Positions 33,197 through 42,656 of a stretch of 64,000 bases of DNA are shown piece after piece. The DNA comes from Pseudomonas paralcaligenes (GTDB taxonomy: Bacteria > Pseudomonadota > Gammaproteobacteria > Pseudomonadales > Pseudomonadaceae), in contig NZ_BPFX01000012.1 in assembly GCF_019655855.1 (NCBI RefSeq), forward strand, positions 1 through 64,000. The letters are read 5' to 3'. The notes beneath the pieces are model-generated. The model saw nothing but the letters and a program-made list of their open reading frames with translations, made no database searches and had not been told where the DNA came from. Positions within the stretch are counted from its first letter, which is position 1. Every line of letters begins with the position of its first letter. The translations under genes were made by a program, and so were the position numbers.

Positions 33197-33518
33197 TACC
33201 TCCAGTGCGGCTCTGCGCCGCACGCGCCTATCCGTGTCATAGCCAGAATTCTCAGGTGCCCACACGGTACGGCTGGTACTCTACGGGCGCCTGAAAGCCT
33301 GTTTTCGCTCTGCTGCGCGTCGGCCATGCGTCGTTAAAAACAGGCTCGGAAAGCAGCTTGCTGCTGACGCGCTTTAGCGCGGCCCGAAGGGTGAGTGAAA
33401 CGAGCAATGCTCATTTACCACTCGTAAACTCCGCTTCCTCGCCTGTTTTAGCCTAGCCTGGCACTAGCTCGCGAGAGCGCTAACAGACTTTGCGCAATAG
33501 CCAATCAAGAGGCCCGCT
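33197..33518 (+). repeat. hisG-hisD gap with inverted repeats
   Basis: This 322-base gap holds no gene. A hairpin without a T-tract (GTGCGGC with GCCGCAC, 33205-33223) follows hisG. GCCTGTTTT at 33297-33305 and 33441-33449 flanks its complement AAAACAGGC at 33337-33345, so the middle copy can pair with either side. The sequence between has the look of a dispersed Pseudomonas intergenic repeat, from memory. A hisD promoter is not obvious. Confidence 0.6.
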
Positions 33519-36019: not shown

Positions 36020-36048
36020 AAAAAGGCGCCCCGCGGGGCGCCTTTTTT
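36020..36048. terminator. Bidirectional terminator between hisC and algW
   Basis: AAAAAGGCGCCCC and GGGGCGCCTTTTTT form a nearly perfect palindrome with A- and T-tracts on both sides, placed between the convergent hisC and algW stops. The T-tract has been interrupted downstream by the inserted element at 36052. Confidence 0.92.
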
Positions 36049-36051
36049 CAT

Positions 36052-36238
36052 GGCCATGCACCCGTTGTTACGTGTTACGCAGGCAAGCCCCTCTGTCTGA
36101 ACACTGCAGTTACCTGTCCTTGGATTCTCGCCTTCGCGGGAATGACGGTTTCGGAAGATTCCCCTCTACCTCGTCATCCCCGCGCAGACGGGGATCCAAA
36201 AGGGCTCAGGGCACTACACAACTAACGAGGACATAGCC
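36052..36238. mobile_element. Miniature inverted-repeat element, copy 1 (187 bp)
   Basis: The ends are GGCCATGCACCCGTT and, inverted, GGCTATGTCCTCGTT. The same ends occur at 42507-42639. TTTTTCAT flanks it directly on both sides (36044-36051 and 36239-36246), as expected for an 8-bp target duplication in the hisC/algW terminator. The interior has no open frame but contains an inverted pair (about 36120-36148 and 36171-36199) resembling the repeat at 55786. Non-autonomous mobility is inferred. Confidence 0.65.
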
Positions 36239-36255
36239 TTTTTCATGGCCGCTTC

Positions 36256-42394: not shown

Positions 42395-42398
42395 CCGT

Positions 42399-42459
42399 AG
42401 GGTGCGCCGTGCGCACCGGTATTTCAGGCATTTCTCTTGCGATGCGCGTAGCGCACCCT
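42399..42459. repeat. Inverted repeat between two terminators
   Basis: AGGGTGCGC (42399-42407) and GCGCACCCT (42451-42459) are exact complements separated by 43 bases. The first arm runs on into CGTGCGCACC, a smaller palindrome. This looks like a REP-type intergenic repeat between cysNC and zapG; no gene is present. Confidence 0.55.
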
Positions 42460-42470
42460 TTCAGCAACAT

Positions 42471-42508
42471 CCAATAAAAAGCCCCGCATTGGCGGGGCTT
42501 TTTATTGG
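42471..42508. terminator. Bidirectional terminator between cysNC and zapG
   Basis: CCAATAAAAAGCCCCGC and GCGGGGCTTTTTATTGG form a 17-bp stem around ATTG, with A- and T-tracts on both sides. It lies between the convergent cysNC and zapG genes and served as the insertion site of the second miniature element. Confidence 0.9.
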
Positions 42509-42639
42509 CTATGTCCCCGTTACGTGTTGGTGGCACAACTCTGCTCTTGTGGGCGCGGCTGAGCGGCATTCCGATTGGCCGCGAAATTCGCGGATAAATC
42601 CGCTCCCACAATGTGTGCACAACTAACGGGGACATAGCC
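42507..42639. mobile_element. Miniature inverted-repeat element, copy 2 (133 bp)
   Basis: The ends are perfect 16-bp inverted repeats, GGCTATGTCCCCGTTA at 42507 and its complement ending at 42639; the similarity continues to about 22 bp. TTTTTATT flanks it directly (42499-42506 and 42640-42647), consistent with an 8-bp target duplication in a terminator T-tract. The core (42547-42611) is a different REP-type inverted repeat (TTGTGGGCGCGG facing CCGCTCCCACAA) from that of copy 1. There is no open frame. Confidence 0.7.
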
Positions 42640-42656
42640 TTTTTATTGGGCTGGAT

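Follow-up and report, generated by a model that had tools for sequence, protein, structure and literature searches.

What is the 133-bp repeat that lies at the terminator between two convergent genes of Pseudomonas paralcaligenes, how did it get there, and why did it come to rest at a terminator? The window (the whole 64,000-nucleotide stretch of DNA that was analysed) holds two copies of the element, each next to the hairpin of a different terminator (Table 1). Our comparisons suggest that the repeat is a MITE of the IS1595 family of insertion sequences that is mobilised in trans, favours terminator T-tracts at the hairpin end, and carries REP palindromes as passengers. We give this reading of the sequence a probability of about 0.87.

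The sequence-only reading from which we started had placed copy 2 at 42507-42639 and had described a perfect 16-bp inverted repeat with identical flanks. Both descriptions are exact: the element is 133 bp long, and the same 8 bp, TTTTTATT, stand on either side of it. The names cysNC and zapG given to the two convergent genes around this site fit the reading of their ORFs. In both copies the stem of the host terminator ends at the first duplicated base, the hairpin at copy 2 being GCCCCGC-ATTG-GCGGGGC. When folded, the copy 2 terminator and its A-tract form one hairpin (-23.7 kcal/mol, z -6.48), and in the sequence as it now stands the terminator together with its T-tract is still able to fold; the 133-nt strand of the element itself has a fold of -72.4 kcal/mol (z -8.45). 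Within the window, the 16-bp end has three matches at up to three mismatches vs 0.23 expected, and none of 100 shuffles reached three. It had also been claimed that the two copies share their ends and not their flanks. This stands, since their best aligned stretch is 22 bp at 95%, and the copies differ in their interiors too, not in their flanks alone.

Table 1. Coordinates in the window of the two MITE copies and of the features around and within them.
Feature	Coordinates	Strand	Description
MITE copy 1 (class B)	36052..36238	.	187 bp; CGTC-type REP pair inside
Copy 1 target duplication TTTTTCAT, stem side	36044..36051	+	
Copy 1 target duplication TTTTTCAT, far side	36239..36246	+	
Copy 1 terminator hairpin	36024..36043	+	8-bp perfect stem
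MITE copy 2 (class A)	42507..42639	.	133 bp; 16-bp ends, 8-bp duplication
Left terminal inverted repeat, copy 2	42507..42522	+	common to 1033-bp IS
Right terminal inverted repeat, copy 2	42624..42639	-	common to 1033-bp IS
Copy 2 target duplication TTTTTATT, stem side	42499..42506	+	terminator T-tract
Copy 2 target duplication TTTTTATT, far side	42640..42647	+	
Copy 2 terminator hairpin	42481..42498	+	7-bp perfect GC stem
A-tract AATAAAAA before copy 2 hairpin	42473-42480		
REP pair within copy 2	42547..42611	.	GTGG type
GATTTATCC variant REP in copy 2	42587-42610		

Two other repeats were seen in the window. A REP-like inverted pair (GTAGGGTGCGC...GCGCACCCT), without IS1595-type ends, lies at 42397-42459, between the first terminator after the upstream gene and copy 2. 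Elsewhere, about 200 bases at 33295-33495 are absent from a related genome (G013) at an otherwise aligned place; by eye they resemble a MITE that is nested inside another element at locus L023 (CGTTAAAAAC..GCTCATTTAC..CTCGTAAACTC), and they probably represent another lineage-specific repeat family.

The ends are shared with a 1033-bp IS in the same genome (L060:996-2028, which is contig C14, 246395-247427). Its end bases match at 16 of 16 positions, it is flanked on both sides by the 8-bp duplication TTTTTTAT, and it contains a single, uninterrupted ORF for a 321-aa transposase. This protein passes the IS1595 models (NF033547, 188.9 bits with a cut-off of 75; PF12762, 41.1 with a cut-off of 27), and its gene is the only IS1595 transposase match found in the genome. 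The nearest named relative is ISAeme10 of Aeromonas, with a transposase that is 64% identical. Residues D148, D225, N263 and K270, placed by alignment alone, are invariant or nearly so in 18 aligned sequences and fit the DDNK pattern; they are candidates for the DDE/DDN catalytic residues. Structure prediction for the transposase was poor (mean pLDDT 51.7), and a search by sequence against solved structures gave no match. The MITE has 23 bp in common with the IS at the left end and 21 bp at the right; beyond the ends its interior had no match to the IS, unlike that of a deletion derivative. The element thus has the ends of the IS and the same 8-bp duplication length and is too short for a transposase ORF, as expected of an IS1595-derived MITE. 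Because of the shared ends, the duplications, and the existence of sites without the element, the copies very probably owe their mobility to an IS1595-type transposase that acts in trans from another locus of the genome.

Sites without the element are found in G013, which is 87-91% identical to the window in aligned stretches. At the site of copy 1, the flanking stretches are 7 bases apart in G013 vs 212 in the window; at the site of copy 2, which is more diverged, there are 150 unaligned bases vs 262 in the window. Neither site has the element. A hairpin and T-tract are present in G013 at the sites of both copies, the copy 2 terminator being recognisable as AATAAAAAGCCCCGC...GCGGGGC, and the copy 2 site of a further genome (G012, locus L212) likewise lacks the element and shows a similar terminator. 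The earlier argument for transposition over a longer shared repeat is supported by the site-specific duplications and the element-free orthologous sites of both copies, and also by the 1033-bp IS of this genome, with its matching ends and its uninterrupted transposase ORF.

Across the 5.47-Mb draft assembly of the host, the 133-bp element is matched in full or in part 42 times. With up to two mismatches allowed, the 16-bp end occurs 125 times vs twice for the reversed pattern. Ends were paired in the loci that were fetched, which are a subset of the ends in the genome; this gave 58 pairs of all lengths, overlapping composites included. Flanks match at 7 or 8 of 8 bases in 33 of the 58, and several of the 25 pairs without matching flanks are composites or decayed. 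Among pairs of 130-136 bp, the 8-base flank check that had been proposed for all copies succeeds in 17 of 23. The duplications vary from site to site. Dropping four rows that overlap another or share a site from the 33 left 29 insertions, which are those scored below. Two loci have more complex arrangements. At L026:1166-1634, a class A element follows a class B element, and TTTGAAAA occurs there three times; it seems that the target duplication of one insertion was hit again. At L009:1329-1633, class B and class A elements share a matching outer duplication, TTTAGAAA, but a differing sequence separates the two; the compound looks as though it had transposed as a whole.

Where do the elements insert? 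A hairpin was scored if a perfect Watson-Crick stem, 6 bp or longer and with a loop of 3-8, ended directly at the T-rich duplication (distance 0) or one base short of it (distance 1). Such a stem precedes 21 of the 29 insertions (23/33 before rows were dropped), in all 21 at distance 0, which bears out the earlier claim that the duplicated bases belong to the host terminator. The background, taken from loci L001-L030 and the window, is 3168 of 309908 positions (1.0%) and 188 of 2002 T-rich positions (9.4%); on the opposite side of the element the stem is found in 1/29. T occupies position 1 of the duplication in 28/29 and position 8 in 27/29, with TTTTTCAT as the most frequent form. In 24/29 a predicted gene is oriented toward the T-tract, and in 17 of those its stop is 32-48 bases before the T-tract. 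The orientation of the element relative to the terminator is mixed. The constant register applies to the stem before the T-tract: when stems are allowed into the T-tract, they are extended by A-T pairs, and the best register then varies between 0 and -10. The eight insertions without a stem, which mostly have less regular duplications (e.g., TTTGCGAT), count against terminator targeting, as do the three of 29 that lie inside a crudely predicted ORF. The perfect-stem rule was preferred to a hairpin test based on folding energy, which was too loose (27/33 insertions vs 61/200 T-rich and 70/200 random controls, and also 15/33 on the opposite side).

Could the transposase prefer no more than a sequence or composition (GC-rich DNA followed by TTTTT-C/A-A/T-T and then by G/C), the hairpin being incidental because such sites are often terminators in a GC-rich genome? 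For this speak the strong consensus of the duplication, the G or C found on either side of it at most sites, and the eight own sites that lack a hairpin, but the hairpin excess persists when both the T-run and the GC-rich front are matched. With TTTT and a GC-rich 12-mer in front, the stem is present in 16/18 insertions vs 23/113 controls (p 2.7e-8); with TTTTT and the GC-rich 12-mer, it is present in 13/13 vs 16/38 (p 1.8e-4). Moreover, GC-flanked TTTTT sites away from elements have the stem in 18/57, or in 18/49 outside crude ORFs, and comparison of the latter with the 16/16 insertions that contain TTTTT gives p 3.9e-6. We consider a preference for sequence or composition only to be unlikely. 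A different explanation, which we regard as improbable, is that insertions fall widely and selection retains the harmless ones, such that terminators are where the survivors sit. Terminators are safe places, and 26 of the 29 insertions are outside predicted ORFs; nonetheless, selection alone explains neither the constant register (21/21 stems at distance 0) nor why stems are more frequent here than at other intergenic TTTTT sites. We also considered and rejected selection acting on short length alone, since it leaves the register unexplained.

The interior of the elements raises another alternative, that they are REPINs moved by a RAYT (Y1) transposase and that their IS1595-like ends are incidental. 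By eye, the REP pair is of the GTGG type in class A MITEs (110-136 bp) and of the CGTC type in class B MITEs (most of those of 187-375 bp), which often have a GTAGGGTGGGTTA-type pair as well; at L023 a second MITE is nested within a class A element, and L064 is mixed. An inverted REP pair is expected of a REPIN, and the genome has three Y1 (RAYT-like) matches, two of them above the cut-off. However, the mobile unit extends beyond the REP pair and is bounded by IS1595 ends with 8-bp duplications, and the three Y1 loci, when searched, had other REP variants nearby and no CGTC or GATTTATCC unit; hence, at none of these loci is a RAYT gene accompanied by a REP variant of the MITEs. The class A variant GATTTATCC occurs in 45 copies at up to one mismatch, 44 of them no more than 420 bp away from an IS1595-type end and 28 with such ends on both sides. 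For the CGTC unit, 45/73 copies at up to one mismatch and 31/38 exact copies are near such an end, and 28/73 are free. The chance of a REP unit being near an IS1595-type end is ~0.5% per side, and since the REP patterns were drawn from the MITEs, the telling part of these counts is the scarcity of free class A copies. Movement by a RAYT transposase is, in our judgement, very improbable.

REP cargo is not confined to this genome. In other genomes of the genus we found ten elements with IS1595-type ends around GTAGGAGCG or GTAGGGTGGGC REP pairs, four of them with exact 8-bp duplications; the ten represent five independent sites by their flanks, in six genomes, and come from 20 regions chosen for matching. 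This shows that REP-carrying, IS1595-ended MITEs recur in the genus, with other REP types inside, and implies nothing about their frequency. By eye, only one of the five independent sites (L364) is beside a hairpin, which counts against terminator targeting. Four genomes (loci L361, L368, L370 and L373) have one 98-bp IS1595-ended REP element with the same flanks and decayed duplications, and this is an old inherited insertion. A different arrangement is seen at L282 (G000, contig C14, 27135-27963), where five tandem CGTC-REP units stand ~172 bases apart with few IS1595-type ends.

When 149 genomes of the genus were searched with the 133-bp MITE, with few candidates scored in each, none of the matches listed outside its own genome spans the full 133 bp; those listed are mostly REP-core, with a few reaching one end. 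Six relatives have 2, 1, 1, 0, 0 and 0 ends at up to one mismatch, i.e., 4 ends in 3 genomes, and two of the six (G365 and G409) are apparently the same genome. With so few ends in these relatives, the burst of MITEs seems to be specific to the host lineage. A related MAG (77% complete) has a 97% identical transposase, but only 1 end was found there, and this counts against our main reading.

The preference for stems extends to related IS elements in other genera. Transposase relatives were present at 110 loci, and at 53 of these the ends could be paired with an exact 8-bp duplication; removal of our own IS, a spurious pair (L100), two duplicate sites and five sites with short flanks (two of which, both Ferrimonas, had a stem) left 44. 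A stem is in register in 15/44 (13 at distance 0, 2 at distance 1) vs 157 of 6448 T-rich positions in the same loci (2.4%; p 1.4e-13), and on the other side of the element in 2/44. For relatives with a duplication beginning TTTT, the figures are 10/19 vs 18/515 (p 1.9e-9). The 15 stem-bearing relatives are from Pseudomonas, Azotobacter, Aeromonas, Craterilacuibacter, Corallincola, Candidatus Dactylopiibacterium and Massilia. Since relatives share the stem preference, it is a property of this IS1595 branch as a group and is not limited to the MITE. The hairpin rule failed in 29/44 insertions of the relatives, which counts against terminator targeting.

How might insertion at a terminator proceed? 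We propose that the transposase makes an 8-base staggered cut over the T-tract. Duplication of the T-tract would rebuild stem and T-tract on the stem side, and the terminator would keep working. Because the duplicated T-tract would preserve the terminator, insertion may be cheap, allowing roughly 60 copies (125 ends) to accumulate, and the REP palindromes between the ends would be passengers spread by the IS1595 transposase. Candidates for what is recognised are the DNA shape or a cruciform at the stem/T-tract junction, or a paused transcription complex, the RNA-DNA hybrid of which covers about the same bases as the duplication; recognition of sequence alone is a third option that is disfavoured by the matched controls. 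A wider reading, which we offer tentatively and think less likely to be right than wrong, is that an IS1595 branch in several proteobacterial genera recognises intrinsic terminators as such, and that its MITEs have repeatedly captured REP palindromes of several families and mobilise them. Recognition would then be by cruciform-prone DNA or the paused complex, with a cut across the bases of the RNA-DNA hybrid, and the MITEs would be the missing mobiliser of transposase-less REP types, CGTC above all.

The IS resembles the IS1595 family in its transposase models, its GGC-starting ends, its 8-bp duplication and its ~1 kb length; the preference for the stem/T-tract junction and the MITEs with REP interiors were not reported for the family in the literature searched. 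Extragenic palindromic or terminator DNA is also a target for other elements: attTn7 adjoins a terminator, and some IS elements insert into REPs. In contrast, Tn7 uses one site via a dedicated protein, whereas the MITE uses many unrelated terminators, and for the MITE the REP is cargo and not target. The MITE interiors, which are inverted REP pairs of the GTGG/GTAG and CGTC types, are like REPs and REPINs, among them the CGTC-tagged REPs of PMC3733652. Unlike a REPIN/RAYT system, the mobile unit has IS1595 ends and an 8-bp duplication, and its REP variants are not beside the Y1 genes of this genome. Another parallel is YPAL/RU-2 of Yersinia, a small element with targets that, according to PMC2229807, span or adjoin dyad symmetry; the same paper gives it 3-26 bp duplications and no terminal inverted repeats. 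Compared with YPAL/RU-2 so described, the MITE differs in having an 8-bp duplication, 16-bp ends and a known transposase family.

The openly accessible literature on IS1595 that was searched gives no report of terminator targeting or REP cargo, and both may, with caution, be new for IS1595. PMC9208149 describes IS1595 as overrepresented between co-directional genes, and gives a preferred distance to the closest gene of 500-550 bp for IS1595 in Beta- and Gammaproteobacteria. A preference for 500-550 bp does not resemble one for terminators, and it counts against the terminator reading.

What would insertion at terminators mean for elements of this kind? A built-in safe site, available downstream of many genes, would account for a DDE-type IS reaching high copy number with genes left unbroken, and a terminator-seeking transposase would lend itself to neutral insertion. 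PMC3733652 leaves open whether anything mobilises CGTC-type REPs, and what it is; the REP pairs in IS1595 MITEs bear on this question.
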